Positions 1 through 8,625 of a stretch of 11,423 bases of DNA are shown here, in pieces. Source of the stretch: an uncultured Lentisphaeraceae bacterium (GTDB taxonomy: Bacteria > Verrucomicrobiota > Kiritimatiellia > RFP12 > DVOR01); contig CAMGJH010000003.1 in the NCBI GenBank assembly GCA_946056345.1, positions 1 through 11,423 of the forward strand, read 5' to 3'. The translations under genes and the position numbers were made by a program. The stretch's first letter is position 1; the number at the start of each line of letters is the position of its first letter. The notes beneath the pieces were generated by a model. It saw nothing but the letters and a program-made list of their open reading frames with translations, ran no database searches and was not told the origin of the DNA.

Positions 1-997
1 GGATGCTGCTCTTCTTAAACTCGTGCGTGGAGAAGAAGACCTTGCCCGCCGGCGCGCCGATGAGCCCGCCCAGGCGGCAGAAGGCCGCGTAGCCCGCCGA
101 CCACGAGCGCTTGTGGACCATCGCGTAGAGGGTGAAGGGGAAGGCCGCGCTCGCCGGGCGGGCGTAGCAGTGCGTGACCTCCGCCTCGGCCGCCAAACGC
201 CGCCCCGCCGCGTCGCACGCTTCCGGCGCCACCTGCCAGCAGCACATCCCGTTGGCCGTAAAGCCTCCCGCGCGGTGGCGCAGCAGGAGGGCGAAGCGCC
301 GCAGCGTGCCATCGGCCTGCCAGACGCGCAACTGCGGCAAATCGGCCACCCGCCACGGCTCAACCACCTTCGCCGTATCGTCCTGATAGCGCCGGACAAT
401 GGCCACGGCCTTGGGCGAGAGCGGCGGGGCCGGCACCACCTCCGGCGCCGGCGCGGCCACCGGCGCGCGGTATTCGGTCCGCTCGTCGCGTTCGCGTGTG
501 CCGGCCTCGAAGACCACATCGATCTTGTAGCGCGTCAGGGCCGGGAAGGGGGTCGGGGCCAGGTCGGCCAACCGCGCGGCCTCGGCCTCGAAGCGTTCAG
601 CCGGCGCCGAGAGGGTCCACCAGAGGTTTGGATAGGGCGCGTAATCCTGCGCCGAGAGGCCATTGGCCGAAAAGTCCACCGGCCAAGCGCGCTCGTAAGC
701 GTGCGTCACCCCCGGCAACGCACAGACCCGCGCCGCGGCTGCCGCTAGCGCCGGGCCTTCCGCCCGCACGGCGTAGAGGCAGCTGCGATAGCCCAAGCGC
801 CGCGCATCGAAGACCGCCCCCACGCGCCGCACCATTCCCGCCGCGCGCAACCGGCCGATAAAGCCCGCCAGCTGCGCCTCGCTCGCGCCAAGCGCCTCCC
901 CCAAAACAGTCAACGGCCGCGACACCAAAGGCCACGGCCGCTGCAAGGCATAGAGCCAGCGCGCTTCATCTGCAGAGAGTTGGATCTGTTCGTCCAT
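1..997 (-). CDS. Two-domain siroheme decarboxylase (AhbA/AhbB or NirDL type), 3' end cut by window edge
   Basis: Siroheme decarboxylases convert siroheme to didecarboxysiroheme in the cytoplasm, a step in the alternative (Ahb) heme pathway or in heme d1 synthesis. I translated 332 residues with no stop. Residues about 8-75 form an Lrp/AsnC-like winged helix ending in RRVGAVFDARRLGYRS, followed by GVTHAYER (96-103) and YPNLWWTL (122-129). After an Ala/Pro-rich linker (about 178-192) a second copy has a degenerate helix-turn-helix, then FTANGMCCW (246-254), EVTHCYARP (273-281) and FFSTHEFKKSS near the end. These are family hallmarks, and the last motif normally lies just before the C-terminus, so only a few residues should be missing. 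D. desulfuricans makes the two halves as separate AhbA and AhbB; fused NirDL forms are known. The ATG at 997 has no Shine-Dalgarno sequence. It follows the hexokinase gene by 44 bp. An Lrp-type regulator is the alternative, but the paired catalytic-type motifs argue against it. Confidence 0.85.
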   Translation of the reverse strand, partial: MDEQIQLSADEARWLYALQRPWPLVSRPLTVLGEALGASEAQLAGFIGRLRAAGMVRRVGAVFDARRLGYRSCLYAVRAEGPALAAAAARVCALPGVTHAYERAWPVDFSANGLSAQDYAPYPNLWWTLSAPAERFEAEAARLADLAPTPFPALTRYKIDVVFEAGTRERDERTEYRAPVAAPAPEVVPAPPLSPKAVAIVRRYQDDTAKVVEPWRVADLPQLRVWQADGTLRRFALLLRHRAGGFTANGMCCWQVAPEACDAAGRRLAAEAEVTHCYARPASAAFPFTLYAMVHKRSWSAGYAAFCRLGGLIGAPAGKVFFSTHEFKKSSI

Positions 998-1041: not shown

Positions 1042-2289
1042 CTAGATGGCGGCGGCGATGGCGGCGCCGAGGAGGGGGGCGTCGTCGATACGAACAATCT
1101 CGAAGGAGAAGCCGCGGGGGCGGAGGAGTGCATCGAGCTGCTGCTCGACGATTTTGCGGAAGGGGACGCAGGCGGTCTTCCAGAAGGTGGAGCCATCGGC
1201 ATTGATACGGCAGAGGCCGGAGCGGCAGCCGCGGGCCTCGGCGGATTGGAGGGCGGCGGCAGCGATGTTGATGGCGGCGAAACGGGCAGCGCGCTCGTAC
1301 ATCGGGCAGAGGAGCGAGCGGATGACCTCGGCTTCGTCGGCCGAACAGGCGAAAAGGTCTGGCCGGCGGCCGGCGCAGAAGTCGTCGAGCTCGATGTTAG
1401 TGAGGGCGCGCGAGAGGATGTCATCGCGTAGGCCGGCGGAGAAGAGGTTGGCTTCGGCGGCGGAGCGGAGGATTTCGGTGCCCAGTCCGCCGAGGTGGAC
1501 GCCGGAGATGCAGCGCTCCCAGAGGGCCCTGCCGTTGCCGGAGGTGGCCTCGTGGCGTTCGTCGAAGCGCGAGCGAGAGAAGTCGGCGAAGTTGCCCGAC
1601 TCGCAATTGATGGGGTAGAAGGTGCCTGCGGGGAGGCCGGGGGCTTTGAGGATGCGCCCGGCGGCTTCGGCGTAGGCGGTGTTGGTGCCGGTGCCGAGGA
1701 TGAAGCCCACGTAGGCCGCGCGCCGTTCTTCGGCGTGATGGGCGTAGGCGGCGAGCAGGGCGGCGACGGTGTCGTTGAGCACCACGGGGCGGGTCTGGCC
1801 GATGTTGCCGGCGGCGAGGGCCGCGCAGAGCCCCTGGGCCACGTTGGTGCCGACGATGGACGAGGCCTGGATGTGCTTGGTCCAATAGAGCAACACGCCC
1901 TCGGAGGTGACGGGGTAGGAGAAGCAGAAGCCGAAGGGCTCACCGGGGTGGAGGTTCGGCCCGAGCACATCGCAGAGTAGGCGGTAGAACTCCTCGTGGC
2001 TGACCGGCCCGCGCGAGCCGGGCATAAAACCCTTGAGCTGCGGGCCAATCGCCGGCACGCCCTGCGCGTCGAAGCGGACCCGGGCCGAGCGCGTGTTCGT
2101 GCCGCCCACATCGAAGGCCGGCACCTCGCAGTTGCGCGGCATTTCGCGGTTCATCGCGAAGCCGGCCGGCAACATCGGCAGCCGCCCTTCGCCCAAGAGT
2201 CCGCGCGCCATCTCGGCGCGAAAGGCCTGGAGGATCTCTTCTGCGTTGGCCACCTGGGCATCAAAGCCGTTGTCCAGTAAGAACTTCAT
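1042..2289 (-). CDS. Hexokinase, eukaryotic type (actin-fold sugar kinase)
   Basis: This 415-residue cytoplasmic protein should phosphorylate a hexose at C6 with ATP; glucose is likely but not proven. Visible hexokinase motifs, in order, are the phosphate-1 loop DVGGTNTR (60-67), FSYP (123-126), LNDT (171-174) with D173 as the expected catalytic base, the phosphate-2 loop LGTGTN (198-203), CESGNF (229-234) with E230 at the usual sugar-binding position, ISGVHLGGLGTEIL (261-274), and a C-terminal nucleotide-binding segment ending DDAPLLGAAIAAAI. These order and spacings are those of the eukaryotic-type Hexokinase_1/2 family, not bacterial Glk or ROK kinases, and the length is close to a single hexokinase unit. 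The start at 2289 was chosen because GGAGG lies 7 bases upstream and the protein begins MKFLLDNGF. In-frame codons further upstream only read the shikimate gene out of frame. It overlaps the end of the aroB part by 29 bp, implying translational coupling. Confidence 0.88.
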   Translation of the reverse strand: MKFLLDNGFDAQVANAEEILQAFRAEMARGLLGEGRLPMLPAGFAMNREMPRNCEVPAFDVGGTNTRSARVRFDAQGVPAIGPQLKGFMPGSRGPVSHEEFYRLLCDVLGPNLHPGEPFGFCFSYPVTSEGVLLYWTKHIQASSIVGTNVAQGLCAALAAGNIGQTRPVVLNDTVAALLAAYAHHAEERRAAYVGFILGTGTNTAYAEAAGRILKAPGLPAGTFYPINCESGNFADFSRSRFDERHEATSGNGRALWERCISGVHLGGLGTEILRSAAEANLFSAGLRDDILSRALTNIELDDFCAGRRPDLFACSADEAEVIRSLLCPMYERAARFAAINIAAAALQSAEARGCRSGLCRINADGSTFWKTACVPFRKIVEQQLDALLRPRGFSFEIVRIDDAPLLGAAIAAAI

Positions 2290-3844
2290 CAAGCACCTCC
2301 TCGCGCACCGTACAGCCGGTCCGCACCTCGCCAAAGGCCACCGGCAGGGCGAACCGAACCACGCCCGCGGCCTTCTTCTTGTCGTGTGAAAGGTAATCCC
2401 TGAGCGTGGCGGCATCGTAGCCGGCGGGGATCTCCGTGGGCAGCCCCAACGCCTCGAGCCCGGCCTTGACGCGCGCCGAGAGCCCCGCCTCGCGCGCCAC
2501 ACCCATCCCCTCTGCCAACCGCGCCGCCGCCACCGTCCCAATCGCTACCGCCTCGCCGTGCGCCACGGTAAAGCCGCTGGCCGCCTCGACCGCGTGGCCG
2601 ACGGTGTGACCCAGGTTGAGCGCCGCGCGTAGACCAGTCCGCTCGAAGGGGTCGGCCAAGATGGTGCGCACCTTTACGCCCACCGAGCGCACCACCAGCT
2701 CGGTCAAATAGTCCACCGAGCCGCGCGCCTGGGCAAAACGCCCGAGCAGCTCGGCCAGCGCCGGGTCGCCAATCATCGCGTGCTTATAGGTTTCGGCCAG
2801 ACCGCAGCGCAGTTCGCGCTCGGGTAGCGTGGAGAGCACTTCGGTATCCGAGAGCACCGCGCAAGGCGGATGGAAGGCACCAATCAAGTTCTTCCCGGCC
2901 GCCAGGTCCGCCCCCGTCTTGCCCCCCACGCCGGCATCGACCATTGCCAGCAGGCTCGTGGGCAGATTCAGCCAGCGGATACCGCGCAGCCAGGTGGCCG
3001 CCGCAAAGCCCGTCAAGTCGCCCACCACCCCGCCGCCCAGGGCCAACACCAAGTCGCCGCGCTCCAGCCCCGCGCGCAACATCGCCCCCCAGATGCCCTC
3101 CACCGTCGCCAAGGTCTTATGCTCCTCGCCGGCGGGAATTTCGTGGCAGGGCACCGACGCGCCCAAGGCCGCCTCCACCCGCGCGCGGTAAAGCGGCAAC
3201 GTGTTGCTATCGCCCACCAACAGCAGGTGCCGCGGTCGGGGCTCCAACCGCGCAATCACCCCGCCCAGCAGCCCAATCGCCCCCGGCGCCACGCGCACCG
3301 TGTAGGGCGCACCCATCCCCGAGACCAGGTAGACCCCGAAGGCCGCCAGCACCCGCGGCCAGACCTCCTGCGGCGGGGCAATGCCATCGACCGCCACCTG
3401 CAGCCGGAAGGAGGCGTAGTGCTCCTTGCGCTCGGCCAGCGTTTTGAGCAACGCCGAAGCGTCCGCCGAGAAGGGGCGACTCCCCGCCTTGCGCTCGACG
3501 CGCCGCGCCAACTCCTCCGGCGGCGTCTGAATGCACACCACCGGCCCGCACGCCTCCACCAACGCGCGGTTGCGCTCGCGCAAGAGCGCCCCGCCCCCCA
3601 ACGCCACCACCGCGTTCGGCGCCTCGGCACAGAGCGCCTCCAAGGTCGCACTCTCCGCATCGCGAAAAGCCTCGCGCCCGGCCTGCGCCACATAGTTCGG
3701 AATGCTCATCCCCACCCGCGCCTCAATCAGCGCGTCCAAGTCCACCGCGCGCTTCCCCAGCGCCGCAGCCAAATTGCGCGCGCAGGTCGACTTCCCCGTC
3801 GCCGGTGGCCCATACAAAAAGAACGTCTCCGAAGCGTACTGCAT
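2261..3844 (-). CDS. aroKB: Bifunctional shikimate kinase / 3-dehydroquinate synthase
   Basis: One 527-residue cytoplasmic protein covers two steps of the shikimate pathway, phosphorylation of shikimate and closure of DAHP to 3-dehydroquinate. The kinase (about 6-170) shows Walker A GPPATGKST (12-20), DLD (35-37), the shikimate-contact region GREAFR (56-61), GGG (83-85) and a lid arginine in SRPF (122-125). The synthase (about 178-520) shows GEEHKTL (239-245), GGGVVGD (270-276), DAGVGGKTG (303-311) and the zinc ligands E351, H413 and H429; the 16-residue spacing of the two histidines matches characterised enzymes. All expected catalytic residues are present, so both halves look active. The same kinase-first fusion is known from Thermotoga maritima. 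The start at 3844 places the kinase loop at the normal distance; GGAG lies 13 bases upstream, a rather long spacing. Its 3' end supplies the ribosome-binding site of the overlapping hexokinase gene. Confidence 0.95.
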   Translation of the reverse strand: MQYASETFFLYGPPATGKSTCARNLAAALGKRAVDLDALIEARVGMSIPNYVAQAGREAFRDAESATLEALCAEAPNAVVALGGGALLRERNRALVEACGPVVCIQTPPEELARRVERKAGSRPFSADASALLKTLAERKEHYASFRLQVAVDGIAPPQEVWPRVLAAFGVYLVSGMGAPYTVRVAPGAIGLLGGVIARLEPRPRHLLLVGDSNTLPLYRARVEAALGASVPCHEIPAGEEHKTLATVEGIWGAMLRAGLERGDLVLALGGGVVGDLTGFAAATWLRGIRWLNLPTSLLAMVDAGVGGKTGADLAAGKNLIGAFHPPCAVLSDTEVLSTLPERELRCGLAETYKHAMIGDPALAELLGRFAQARGSVDYLTELVVRSVGVKVRTILADPFERTGLRAALNLGHTVGHAVEAASGFTVAHGEAVAIGTVAAARLAEGMGVAREAGLSARVKAGLEALGLPTEIPAGYDAATLRDYLSHDKKKAAGVVRFALPVAFGEVRTGCTVREEVLDEVLTGQRL

Positions 3845-4783: not shown

Positions 4784-7700
4784 CTATTCCTCGACAACCA
4801 CGCGGAAGCCGACGTTGTAGGGGCGCTGCCAGGAGGGATAGCCCCAGCGGGTGGCGGAGGTGGCGCGGATTTGGCGCTGGTACCAGGAGCCGCCGCGGAT
4901 AACGCGCAGGTCGGGGTTCTCGGCCTCGAAGCCAGTGCCGCCGACGTAGGCGGTGAAGGGCGAGGAGGTCCATTCGGCCACATTGCCGTGCATATCGTGG
5001 AGGCCGAAGGCGTTGGGCTGGTAGGAGCCGACCTTGGCGAGGTGGAGGACCCCGTCGTTAAAGCGGGGGTCCTTCTTCTCGTAGTCCATAAACTGGTTGG
5101 GATTACGGATGGGCTGGGGGTCGACGCCGGAGACGGCGAGCTTCTTTATCGTGACGTCGGCGAGGTTGGCGTGCTTGGAGAAGTCGTCGTTGAGTTCGCC
5201 GTAGTTCATCGGGGTGTCGGTGCCGGCGCGGCAGGCGTATTCCCACTCGGTCTCGGTGGGGAGGCGGACGGTGCGGCCGGTCTTGGCTGAGAGCCACGCG
5301 CAGAAGGCTTGGGCCTTGTCGTAGGAGACGCGGATGGCCGGGAAGTCGGGGCCGTTGACGAAGTAGCCGCGGCGGACCTGGTCCTTGTAGTGCATATCGT
5401 AAACACCGTTCTCGAAGGTGGCATCGAACTGCTGCATCATCGCCATCGTGGTCTCGGTGGTGGCCATATAGAAGGGCTTGGAGACGGTGGCGATGTGGGC
5501 GGGGGCTTCGGCGTTGGACTCGGTGTTAGAACCCATCACGAAGGAGCCGGCGGGGATGCGCACGGCGGTGATGACCTGGCCGCCACCGAGGTCGAGCTTC
5601 AACTCTTGGCGCGGGCCCTGCTTGGCTTGCCCATCGAAGGGCCAGCCATCGAGATCGATCTCGGCCTTGGTCACGCGCGGGCCGGTGGGAGGCTCGAAGG
5701 TGACGGCGCCGGGCTTGTAGGGGTTGATCACGCGCTCGGGGTTGAAGTCGAGGTTGGTGGTTTTCTTCTCGTAGCTGCGGCGCTGCTCAATGACATTCTG
5801 GCGGCCGCCGCGCTCGGTCCAGGTGCCGAAGTAGGGGACGTTGAGGTCGATCCAGGTGACGAGGCGGTCCCACTCTTCGGCGGTGAGCTGCACGCCCTTG
5901 TGGCCCTTCTTGAGGTGCTGATAGAGTTCGGAGGTCGAGGCGTGGAACTCGAGGGGCGTGAGGACGTGGTAGTCGCCCTCGGGGCCATTGCGGCGGACGT
6001 AGGGATGCAGGGCGATGTAGGAGCCGCTGAAGCCGTTCCAGACATTGGGGCGGTAGGTGAAGTCGGGGATCTTCTGGCCGATGGCGTTGGTGGCCTTGGT
6101 CTGGCCGTTGTGGCAACCGACGCACTTGCGGTCGAGGACGGGCTGGACCTCGCGGTCGAAGCTCCAGCCGCGCGCCGGGCCGTACCAGGGCTTAATCTGC
6201 TGGGGCTTCTTGCGCGAGGCGATGGGGGCGATGGTCGGCGGGGCCATATTTTGGCTTTCGTGGCAGCCGATGCAGCTGATGGTCTCGCCCGGCATGCCCA
6301 CGAGCCACGAACGCATCATCTGCAGCGCCTGGCCGTTTTCATCGAGCGGCTGGACGGTGAGGGGCGTGTTGGCCGGGAACTCGAACATGCACGAGCCATC
6401 TTCTTCCACATCCACGGTGCCGTGGAGGATGCGCACGTCCCACGGACCTTCCATCCCGATGGCGTAGTGGCCGCCGGCGTGGCGCGGAGCGTATTCGTAG
6501 TTGAAGACGCGCAGCTTCTTAACCTTGCCGTGGGGGACGCCTTCCAGGGTCTTCTGGCCACGGTAGACGTTGGCCATATAGACATTGCAGGTCTTGCTCT
6601 CGAGGTTGACGCGGTCGGGGCGGACGGGCGGTTTGGGGCGGGCCTTGAGGGGAATGGGCTCGTAGTAGTTCGCGTCGGGGCTCTCCCAGAGGGTGAGGAC
6701 GTTGTCGTAGATATCCACGAGCACGAGGCGCCAGGGGGAGGCGTTGTCATCCTGCATCGCGGCGAGGACGAGCTCGTCGTTGAGCGGGCGGGGGTGGAGG
6801 AAGTAGGGCTTGATATTGTCGACCAGGCGGTCCAGGGTGATGTTCTCGATCGGGCGGCCACGGAAGGGGAACTTGTGGATGGCGCCCTGGGTCTCGATGC
6901 GGCCCTTGGAGACGTCGAACATCACCAGTTCACCCTTGCGGGCCACGCCGTGGTGGCCGGTGACGATACCGACGAACTTGGTGGAGCTGCCGGGGATGTT
7001 CTGGTGGTAGAAGACGGCGTTGGGCCAGTAGCTGTTCGAGCCGTAGAACTCCTGCTGGTCAGTGCCGTCGGGGTTCATCGTCATCAGCACGCGCGAGAAG
7101 TAGTGGGCTGAGTCGGTGTACTCCCAGCGCATAAAGACCACGCGGCCGTTGGGGTAGACCTCGGGGTTCCAGTTGATGTCTTGGTCAAAGGTCAGGCGGC
7201 GCGAGCTCTTGCGGTCGGCCGAGAGGAGCAGGAGGTTGGCCACGTAGTCTCCGCCGGCCACGCAGGGCACGCCCTGGAAGCCCACGGTGGCGGTGGTGAT
7301 GATGCGCCCATCGGGCAGGTAGCAGGCATCGTAGTAGTCCACATCGGGGTTGGCATCCTCGTAGGCCTTGTGCCAATCCGAGCCATCGACGTTCATCTCA
7401 TAGATGCCCCAGGGGCCTTCCTTTTCGTCGCCGGAGGAGAGGAGGATGCGCTTGGCGTCCCAATCGAGTTCCACGTCGCCGAGGTAGGCGCTCGAGCTCT
7501 TGAGGGTGGTGGGCTGACCGTTGGGGGCATCTTCCTGGCAGAGCGGCCCGCGCAGGAGGGTGTTGCGGTAGCCGCGCAACGTGGCGTTGTTGTCGCCATT
7601 CCAACCGGTGTTGCCCTGGTAGTTCTGGAAGAGGCCCTGCTTGGAACCCTTCGGGCGGTTGACGAAGAGGATCTCCTTAAAGTCCACCGCCGGGTGCTGG

Positions 7701-8443
7701 AGGAGGACCTTCTTCTGCAGGTCGCGGTAGGTATCGTAGAGGGCCTGAGCATCGCTTTCCTTGGCCTCCAGCCGCTGCTGGAGCGCGTCGATGCCCGCGG
7801 CAATCTCGGCGGCATTCGGGTAGGCCTCGGGATACTTTTCGGCATAGGCCTTGAGCGCATCGCGCAGGGCATTGACCTTGATTGCGCCCACCAACGCGGC
7901 GATCCGCGCCCGTTCGGCGCGCTCAGCCAGGGTGTCGGCGTGCTGACCGGTGCGCGGGCCCTTGCCGGCTTCGGGGACAAAGTAGTTCGTTCGTTCGGTC
8001 TTCGGCCGCGTCTCTTCCCAGACAATCGTGCGGTTCGCGTCCGAGAGGGTGACGCGCACGCCGTTAAGGCGCTGGGCATACCCGTCGCCGCGGTTCCAGA
8101 CGACGATCTTCTCCACGGGGACGCTTTTGCCCAGGTCGACTTCCCACATCGGGTCGGTCAGGTCTTCAGGCGTGTGGGTGATGGTGTTATCGCCATAACG
8201 ATCGGAGGTGTTGCCGTCGATGGCGCGCTTGGCATCGCCGCCCCAAGCGGTGGCGCACTGCACGGCCGTTCCGCCGAGGGCCACATTCTGCCCATTGGCG
8301 AAGACCTCCACCTCTGCGAGCGAGAGCGTGGCCTTGTCCTTCGGGATATCCACCGTCACATACCGCGCCTCCACCGCCGCATCAAGCTGCCCGGCCCCAA
8401 TTGCCGCCAGCGCTGCTAAGAGTGTATTCCGCATCCAAGTCAT
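4784..8443 (-). CDS. Exported HzsA-like diheme c protein with N-terminal F5/8C and C-terminal FGE-like domain
   Basis: This 1219-residue protein has a signal peptide (hydrophobic 7-19, cleavage near 22-27). Domains in order: an F5/8 type C-like sandwich (about 28-160; AIDGNTSDRYGDN, WEVDLGK, VWNRGD); a charged helical segment (about 168-250); a propeller-like region with PD40-type strands (about 255-660; VELDWDAKRILLSS, YLPDGRIITTA, VYPNGRVVFMRW); heme-c motifs CIGCH (724-728, bases 6260-6274) and CVGCH (774-778, bases 6110-6124) with a WIDLNVPYFGTW segment (864-875); and an FGE-sulfatase/SUMF1-like domain (about 960-1219; RLPTETEWEYACRAG, MHGNVAEW, RGGSW, VGFRVV). The middle resembles HzsA-related proteins of planctomycetes and relatives. 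The FGE-like domain has no cysteine after C1071, so formylglycine-generating activity is unlikely. The start at 8443 follows GGAGG by 9 bases; ATG 8434 is an alternative. It probably acts outside the cytoplasmic membrane, and needs a cytochrome c maturation system. Substrate unknown; hydrazine synthesis is not implied. Confidence 0.85.
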   Translation of the reverse strand: MTWMRNTLLAALAAIGAGQLDAAVEARYVTVDIPKDKATLSLAEVEVFANGQNVALGGTAVQCATAWGGDAKRAIDGNTSDRYGDNTITHTPEDLTDPMWEVDLGKSVPVEKIVVWNRGDGYAQRLNGVRVTLSDANRTIVWEETRPKTERTNYFVPEAGKGPRTGQHADTLAERAERARIAALVGAIKVNALRDALKAYAEKYPEAYPNAAEIAAGIDALQQRLEAKESDAQALYDTYRDLQKKVLLQHPAVDFKEILFVNRPKGSKQGLFQNYQGNTGWNGDNNATLRGYRNTLLRGPLCQEDAPNGQPTTLKSSSAYLGDVELDWDAKRILLSSGDEKEGPWGIYEMNVDGSDWHKAYEDANPDVDYYDACYLPDGRIITTATVGFQGVPCVAGGDYVANLLLLSADRKSSRRLTFDQDINWNPEVYPNGRVVFMRWEYTDSAHYFSRVLMTMNPDGTDQQEFYGSNSYWPNAVFYHQNIPGSSTKFVGIVTGHHGVARKGELVMFDVSKGRIETQGAIHKFPFRGRPIENITLDRLVDNIKPYFLHPRPLNDELVLAAMQDDNASPWRLVLVDIYDNVLTLWESPDANYYEPIPLKARPKPPVRPDRVNLESKTCNVYMANVYRGQKTLEGVPHGKVKKLRVFNYEYAPRHAGGHYAIGMEGPWDVRILHGTVDVEEDGSCMFEFPANTPLTVQPLDENGQALQMMRSWLVGMPGETISCIGCHESQNMAPPTIAPIASRKKPQQIKPWYGPARGWSFDREVQPVLDRKCVGCHNGQTKATNAIGQKIPDFTYRPNVWNGFSGSYIALHPYVRRNGPEGDYHVLTPLEFHASTSELYQHLKKGHKGVQLTAEEWDRLVTWIDLNVPYFGTWTERGGRQNVIEQRRSYEKKTTNLDFNPERVINPYKPGAVTFEPPTGPRVTKAEIDLDGWPFDGQAKQGPRQELKLDLGGGQVITAVRIPAGSFVMGSNTESNAEAPAHIATVSKPFYMATTETTMAMMQQFDATFENGVYDMHYKDQVRRGYFVNGPDFPAIRVSYDKAQAFCAWLSAKTGRTVRLPTETEWEYACRAGTDTPMNYGELNDDFSKHANLADVTIKKLAVSGVDPQPIRNPNQFMDYEKKDPRFNDGVLHLAKVGSYQPNAFGLHDMHGNVAEWTSSPFTAYVGGTGFEAENPDLRVIRGGSWYQRQIRATSATRWGYPSWQRPYNVGFRVVVEE

Positions 8444-8502: not shown

Positions 8503-8529
8503 GCCTTTTCGCCGATTCACGCAGGATTG

Positions 8530-8613
8530 GCAACCACAAAGGGCACAAAGGACACAAAGGGCACAAGGTCAAGCAACGCGAGAGGCTATGCCCTTTGTGT
8601 CCTTTGTGGTTGC
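8530..8613. repeat. Inverted repeat built of 9-bp CACAAAGG-type units
   Basis: The left arm (8530-8562, 33 bp) starts GCAACCACAAAGG and continues with further GCACAAAGG/ACACAAAGG units. The right arm (8590-8613, 24 bp) is its exact reverse complement except that it lacks one 9-bp unit. The loop is 27 bases. It begins 12 bases after the stop codon of the OppC-like gene, so its RNA hairpin would cap that operon's transcript. No T-run follows, so it is not a standard terminator. Similar CACAAAGG-rich elements are, from memory, scattered through many environmental bacterial genomes, where they give spurious NHKGHKGH-like peptides. Confidence 0.8.
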
Positions 8614-8625
8614 TAAAACGCACGC

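Follow-up and report, generated by a model that had tools for sequence, protein, structure and literature searches.

The window, that is, the whole stretch of 11,423 nucleotides analysed here (contig CAMGJH010000003.1 of an uncultured Lentisphaeraceae bacterium), carries on its reverse strand, at positions 4784–8443, a gene for a 1,219-residue diheme protein that resembles HzsA, the alpha subunit of hydrazine synthase (HZS), and bears additional lectin-like and formylglycine-generating enzyme (FGE)-like domains. Our computational analysis shows that this protein, referred to as alpha, has the HzsA fold and heme motifs, has lost HZS active-site residues and co-occurs with partner genes. The open reading frame (ORF) was judged to be real based on its 1219 codons, a GGAGG motif 9 nt 5' of the ATG and a hydrophobic N-terminus. 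The latter forms a predicted signal peptide (residues 1 to about 22, MTWMRNTLLAALAAIGAGQLDA; positions 8378–8443), a hydrophobic stretch with a Kyte-Doolittle maximum of 1.95 over a 12-residue span, as read from the sequence without a signal-peptide predictor; export, as claimed in the original prediction, is thus likely. It is followed, on the same strand, by an F-type-lectin-like domain (about residues 22–157; 7973–8380; PF22633/PF00754; with H90, R118, R125 and D120), an HzsA-like module (residues 254–879; 5807–7684) consisting of a beta-propeller, a middle domain and a C-terminal cytochrome domain, and an FGE-like domain with a C-type-lectin fold, without the catalytic Cys pair (residues 959–1216; 4796–5569). 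Within the module, the HZS_alpha (PF18582) middle domain recognized by Pfam spans residues 639–729 (6257–6529), and heme-c sites 1 (CIGCH, residues 724–728; 6260–6274) and 2 (CVGCH, residues 774–778; 6110–6124) occupy the positions of hemes alpha-I and alpha-II, respectively, with His848 (5900–5902) being a candidate distal ligand of heme 2. Pfam placed the F5/8C-type, HZS_alpha and FGE domains where the original prediction had named them, and in the order it had given: binding domain, propeller/heme module and FGE fold. A second paralogue in the same genome (L032, G000:C162:1-3947), about 37% identical to alpha, has HZS_alpha and FGE domains, and no lectin domain was found in it by the domain scan.

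Residues 254–879 structurally match HzsA of Kuenenia stuttgartiensis (5c2v, chain A; 20% identity in the structural alignment), with the three domains (propeller, middle and cytochrome) arranged alike, and the alpha family aligns profile to profile with 12 HzsA over 578 columns (probability 99.5, E = 2.1e-22), bearing out the predicted HzsA-like diheme module. The 12 HzsA loci (L223–L234) originate from a sample of 392 genomes representing the phylum to which a Planctomycetes metagenome-assembled genome (MAG) belongs, and 27 of the 392 exceed the NF052339 cut-off. A protein search for alpha relatives scored 7997 candidates and gave 4601 relatives, of which 120 were listed. Fifty-two positions show the same residue in ≥95% of the alpha family and in all 12 HzsA, including His659, Trp713 and both CXXCH motifs. 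The original prediction had named conservation of these motifs among homologues as a test; they align with the first and second CXXCH of HzsA and are invariant (79/79). By contrast, Tyr591, the proximal ligand of heme alpha-I in HzsA, the retention of which was also to be checked, is not kept in alpha, which has Asn732 four residues after the His (H+4) of the first CXXCH. Tyr is present at H+4 in all 12 HzsA, the alignment to the alpha family being gapped here, and in 2 of 84 alphas of a broader set; a gap at this position is described for clades I–III of homologues in passages of PMC12758564. These two alphas, L242_6 (L242 8724-11228) and L251_6, share the Tyr with HzsA, possibly as intermediates or by chance. 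The position of the zinc-site Cys303 is occupied by Asn470 in alpha, with 73 Asn and 6 Gly in the column of 79; 5 of the 12 HzsA carry Cys at the aligned position, and Cys303 is not universal in anammox according to passages of PMC12758564. His848 is invariant (79/79), with HzsA His772 aligned to residue 849, one off and beside a gap, and a bis-His heme 2 in alpha is plausible. Alpha scores 47.4 bits and does not reach the NF052339 equivalog cut-off of 800 bits. In a FastTree phylogeny of 79 alpha cores and the 12 HzsA, the rooting of which by HzsA was not resolved, the clade of the window's genus groups with L067 and L068 (support 0.98), and the next group comprises alphas of the Akkermansia-type (support 1.0). 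We use this name for g58 on the basis of L235, whose alpha shares 94% identity with a protein named Akkermansia sp.

The original prediction took alpha to stand without the rest of the machinery, which does not hold given the strong co-occurrence described below and a fused beta-gamma-like gene in the same genome (G000:C30:2397-4040, E = 2.4e-174). The best PDB sequence matches of its product are HZS beta (2.3e-24) and HZS gamma (1.1e-18), so that both a beta and a gamma partner are encoded, as a homologue below the HZS cut-off (97.7 bits versus 1250 for NF052342). The gamma part matches CCP_MauG (E = 1.7e-8) and has low predicted local distance difference test (pLDDT) values in the structural model; VIA-align match lists for both models were dominated by single domains, and the gamma part is assigned from its sequence. 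Cys502 of the own protein aligns with gamma-Cys165, the third heme-linking Cys of HZS gamma. Among 51 aligned beta-gammas, a Cys at this position is present in 14/14 sequences of the window's genus, 9/12 of the sister family f3, 0/5 of the Akkermansia-type, 1/12 of other sequences of the phylum and 0/8 named loci, and 27 of the 37 sequences outside the window's genus have Ala, Gly or Ser instead; confinement to this genus was rejected given its presence in f3. Gamma-Asp168, near heme gamma-I, is not kept, being Ala in the own protein and Ala, Lys or Ser in 40, 8 and 3 of the 51, respectively. The column taken for His144 has no His in the 14 genus sequences, the alignment being uncertain at this place. 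Cys444 (in L154_2), seven residues before the first CXXCH, is kept in 48 of the 51 beta-gammas, and the aligned HZS gamma has no Cys there. The five Akkermansia-type beta-gammas (L235–L239) contain a third CXXCH.

Among 240 genomes drawn evenly from the phylum, with beta-gamma counted at E values of up to 1e-50, alpha and beta-gamma were each found in 49, both in 46 and neither in 188 (Fisher's test, 6e-42, kinship ignored). By genus, both were present in 18 of the 131 genera and one alone in 2 and 2 (6e-18). Among 59 close relatives, 27 encode alpha and 24 beta-gamma, all 24 inside the 27 (a weak 1e-4 beta-gamma match in G046 was excluded). Furthermore, all 26 genomes reached from alpha-picked loci (27 of the 30 loci L066–L095) match beta-gamma, 25 of them below 1e-50 and G061 with a short piece (2e-20); 8 of the 26 supplied profile rows and the other 18 match too, 17 of them below 1e-50, and G059 is probably the same genome as G040 among the relatives, with identical matches. 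Alpha and beta-gamma occur together in records titled Kiritimatiellae, Planctomycetota, Bacteroidota (Parabacteroides sp. PF5-9), Hydrogenedentota, Armatimonadetes, Lentisphaerae and Verrucomicrobia, the last 6 titles being represented among the 26. Of 52 beta-gamma genes with at least 2 CXXCH, 22 share an ORF with alpha or have it no more than two genes away on their own strand, and 28 have a gene for a Rid-like protein so placed. Five loci, out of 12 g58 genomes, were examined (genes at the loci were called by an amino-acid-composition score, and some starts are misplaced): the order is alpha, beta-gamma, Rid in 4, the contig of the fifth ending past beta-gamma, and a small gene separates alpha from beta-gamma in one. 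Both subunits form one chain in G023:C36 (L202 3635-12832, forward strand), where a single ORF of 3,065 residues as called contains PATR, HZS_alpha, FGE, PKD and CCP_MauG domains and CXXCH at 1450, 1500, 2640 and 2750. In f3, HZS_alpha genes number 36 (G023), 35 (G040) and 29 (G048), facing 3, 1 and 2 full-length beta-gamma genes, respectively, a large expansion of alpha.

The gene adjoining the own beta-gamma gene encodes an imine-hydrolase-like, two-domain Rid protein related to the FkbO/Hyg5 chorismatases. Its DVCRDDLLFELE motif carries the Arg and Glu typical of RidA, an assignment made by motif rather than structure, and R313, E319 and E321 of the L158 Rid protein are invariant in 9/9 rows. 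Imine hydrolysis by Rid proteins that have this Arg, and their clustering with amine oxidases, are described in passages of PMC4433059. Among the 59 relatives, a single Rid copy is present in 24/24 beta-gamma genomes and in 1/35 others; 8 of the 24 supplied the profile rows, and the remaining 16 still match. Rid lies on a different contig from beta-gamma in G018, G050, G051 and G057, showing that the association is not merely close linkage. Rid also adjoins beta-gamma in a Tannerellaceae record, a Hydrogenedentota record and Akkermansia-type genomes.

For the N-terminal domain, the best PDB sequence matches include FBP32, Sm-hPAF and fucolectins. The basic triad H90, R118 and R125 is kept in 74, 75 and 76 of the 79 alphas, respectively, and corresponds to the His-Arg-Arg triad of F-type lectins, which contacts the fucose 4-OH according to passages of PMC5712786. 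With respect to the lectin motif HX24RXDX4(R/K), the window protein has RXDX4R and a His-to-Arg spacing of 27, and the Asp is Asp in 11 and Glu in 33 of the 79 alphas. The C-terminal domain has the FGE fold. The active-site Cys pair of FGE is Cys336/Cys341 in the human enzyme; the window protein has no Cys past residue 1071, and across the alphas there is no Cys past residue 1075 in 65/79 and one in 14/79. FGE activity (sulfatase maturation) was rejected because the Cys pair is missing.

In the window, alpha sits between oppBC and rpsU. At 8 loci of the genus (L033, L037, L041, L044, L050, L052, L055 and L061), it lies beside a purM-type gene (AIRS domains) and a small protein without a Pfam match in the one copy scanned, and at L051 and L063 it adjoins a mraW/ftsI-type cluster. 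Conserved synteny was rejected on these differing neighbours, and a functional partnership with the ABC transporter is thus improbable. Between oppC and alpha lies a long inverted repeat (8527–8616) with 28-nt arms that are 89% complementary, and perfectly so over the inner 20 nt, possibly a terminator or a dispersed repeat. Glycan-acting genes occur near some loci, namely, GH20 at the own beta-gamma locus, an alpha-L-fucosidase gene in L090 and a sulfatase gene in L081. DeoC/LacD-type aldolase or Dak-type genes, some read by eye, lie near alpha in three lineages (Dak1 in L075, Dak2 and aldolase in L083 and L239); the dihydroxyacetone metabolism they suggest could not be tied to a reaction. 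At 2–997 (reverse strand, open at the window edge), a fused AhbA-AhbB-like siroheme decarboxylase (AhbB, 152.6 bits, above the cut-off of 125; AhbA, 100.1 bits, below the cut-off of 140) would fit heme supply, possibly through siroheme as the biosynthetic route, and the genome encodes a cytochrome c assembly protein. HAO/HDH-type proteins (PF13447) were matched neither in this genome (MAG 78% complete) nor in any control genome. At 2261–3844 (reverse strand), shikimate kinase is fused to 3-dehydroquinate synthase.

We propose, with a probability of about 60%, that the gene encodes the alpha subunit of an HZS-like four-heme enzyme that is exported, held at glycans and oxidizes nitrogen-bearing substrates. 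Alpha would be exported and loaded with two c-type hemes, its F-type-lectin-like domain would hold it at fucosylated glycans, for example mucin, and its FGE-like pocket might bind a second ligand. Alpha would pair with beta-gamma as in HZS, and a reactive intermediate or electrons from heme gamma-I could reach heme alpha-I, which here is probably ligated by His rather than Tyr. The surface- or glycan-tethered redox role of the original prediction is plausible, and the likely function would be to oxidize nitrogen-bearing substrates outside the cytoplasm while tethered to glycans. An amine, an amino sugar or another nitrogen-bearing compound would be oxidized to an imine- or enamine-type product, which Rid might hydrolyse after uptake; a nitrogen-bearing substrate is favoured because HZS acts on nitrogen compounds and imine hydrolysis is the activity of Rid proteins carrying this Arg. 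The substrate step is the weakest, these two considerations being its whole basis, and the complex, its substrate and its product are predicted. Several further observations weigh against the proposal. The Rid protein scores far under the cut-offs of the chorismatase (52–91 bits versus 325) and Rid families, has no hydrophobic N-terminus in the one protein checked and looks cytoplasmic, whereas the complex looks exported, and Rid is present alone in G017. Alpha is found without beta-gamma in 3/49 alpha genomes of the phylum sample (G015, G666 and G669) and in 3 of the 27 alpha-bearing relatives (G004, G015 and G029), as is beta-gamma without alpha in 3/49 (G554, G555 and G559). Moreover, the two genes are unlinked in the window's genus (0/14 loci), and alpha copies number 194 versus 12 for beta-gamma in nine genomes of one sister family, so that many alphas could function by themselves or with a common partner.

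The same complex could instead perform carbon chemistry, with a peroxidase- or peroxygenase-type heme enzyme oxidizing glycans or aglycones held by the lectin and FGE-like domains, the MauG/CCP-like beta-gamma handling peroxide and Rid merely clearing by-products. The CCP_MauG match of the gamma part (E = 1.7e-8) and the GH20, alpha-L-fucosidase and sulfatase genes point in this direction, as do the up to 36 alphas versus 1–3 full-length beta-gammas, which fit substrate-specific alphas. However, it leaves the imine-hydrolase Arg and Glu of Rid in 24/24 beta-gamma genomes unexplained, and no peroxide source was identified, so that we consider it rather doubtful. Reductive detoxification of nitric oxide (NO), hydroxylamine, nitrite or peroxide outside the cell, with the lectin as a mucus or cell-surface anchor, would draw on the homology to HZS gamma, the heme gamma-I of which is proposed to reduce NO in passages of PMC12607021, and on the third heme-linking Cys at the gamma-Cys165 position of all 14 genus beta-gammas. 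Yet such a role requires neither up to 36 alpha paralogues nor the lectin, FGE, PKD and PATR domains, the own protein has Ala in place of gamma-Asp168, and the third Cys, replaced by Ala, Gly or Ser in 27/37 other sequences, is hence not essential to the family; this explanation is unlikely.

Several ligand-binding folds and an FGE-like domain without catalytic cysteines would also suit a non-catalytic, glycan-binding or sensing surface protein with the HzsA module as a scaffold, but both heme motifs are invariant in 79/79 alphas and a conserved diheme partner exists, rendering this very improbable. As for a genuine hydrazine synthase in a cryptic anammox-like metabolism, alpha- and beta-gamma-like subunits are present and passages of PMC10732223 propose it for some Phycisphaerae, whereas the Tyr591 and Cys303 positions are lost, the scores are low (47.4 versus 800 bits and 97.7 versus 1250) in comparison with the 27/392 planctomycete-sample genomes that pass the alpha cut-off, and PMC12758564, in the passages concerned, likewise concludes against it for its own homologues. 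Hydrazine synthesis by alpha/beta-gamma was thus rejected on residues and scores, and we regard it as extremely unlikely. Beyond the proposed oxidation of nitrogen-bearing substrates, it is a tentative possibility that the family constitutes a widespread extracytoplasmic class of HZS ancestry with a new heme reaction on nitrogen-bearing glycans or amines (e.g., the oxidation of amino sugars, or N-N or N-O bond chemistry with an organic amine), in which substrate-specific alphas share one beta-gamma and a dedicated Rid hydrolase clears an imine-type product; its hosts would be gut and other bacteria, among them Akkermansia.

Biochemically, HZS is singular among enzymes, and we know of no reaction for its relatives. 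The alpha/beta-gamma family bears on the origin of HZS and represents a further candidate for redox activity at glycan surfaces; it seems to be an unstudied redox enzyme system common to many bacteria, Akkermansia among them, and the presence of the three genes together in Akkermansia-type genomes could make the function of HZS relatives testable in a cultured commensal. In passages of PMC10732223, hzsABC-like genes are reported from Phycisphaerae and KSB1 and a broader enzyme family with other substrates is suggested, and in passages of PMC12758564, co-located alpha and beta-gamma homologues of four clades (I–IV) are judged unable to make hydrazine; clade IV may overlap the alpha family. Thus, the "undescribed biochemistry" of the original prediction stands for this subtype and its partners, but HzsA relatives outside anammox have already been published in these papers. 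Their main texts, the supplements being outside the search, do not mention formylglycine, lectin, Kiritimatiell, Akkermansia or Rid, and a literature search for hydrazine synthase with FGE/SUMF1 gave no paper naming hydrazine synthase among the matches listed. The kind itself is known; within the literature searched, four features appear to be new, namely an alpha with lectin and FGE-like domains, Rid as a partner, the fusion in a single ORF and the gene cluster of Akkermansia.

Compared with known systems, alpha resembles HzsA (5c2v chain A) in the domain order, the two c-heme motifs and the 578 alignable columns, but differs at the Tyr591 and Cys303 positions and adds the lectin and FGE-like domains. 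HZS beta and gamma are separate chains (5c2v B and C), whereas the partner is fused and has the extra conserved Cys444, with Ala in place of gamma-Asp168. The N-terminal domain shares with F-type lectins (fucolectins) the fold family by sequence, the triad and RXDX4R, but the spacing is 27 rather than 24 residues and the Asp is not conserved among alpha relatives. The C-terminal domain resembles the C-type-lectin fold of FGE, PvdO and TvpA but has no catalytic Cys pair and would have a ligand-binding or other role. The Rid partner resembles RidA and the FkbO/Hyg5 chorismatases in its two-domain Rid-type sequence, with Arg and Glu as in RidA, yet scores well below the chorismatase cut-off (325 bits). 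Finally, the non-anammox hzsABC-like homologues described in passages of PMC12758564 and PMC10732223 share with the present system the co-located alpha and fused beta-gamma and the loss of HZS key residues.

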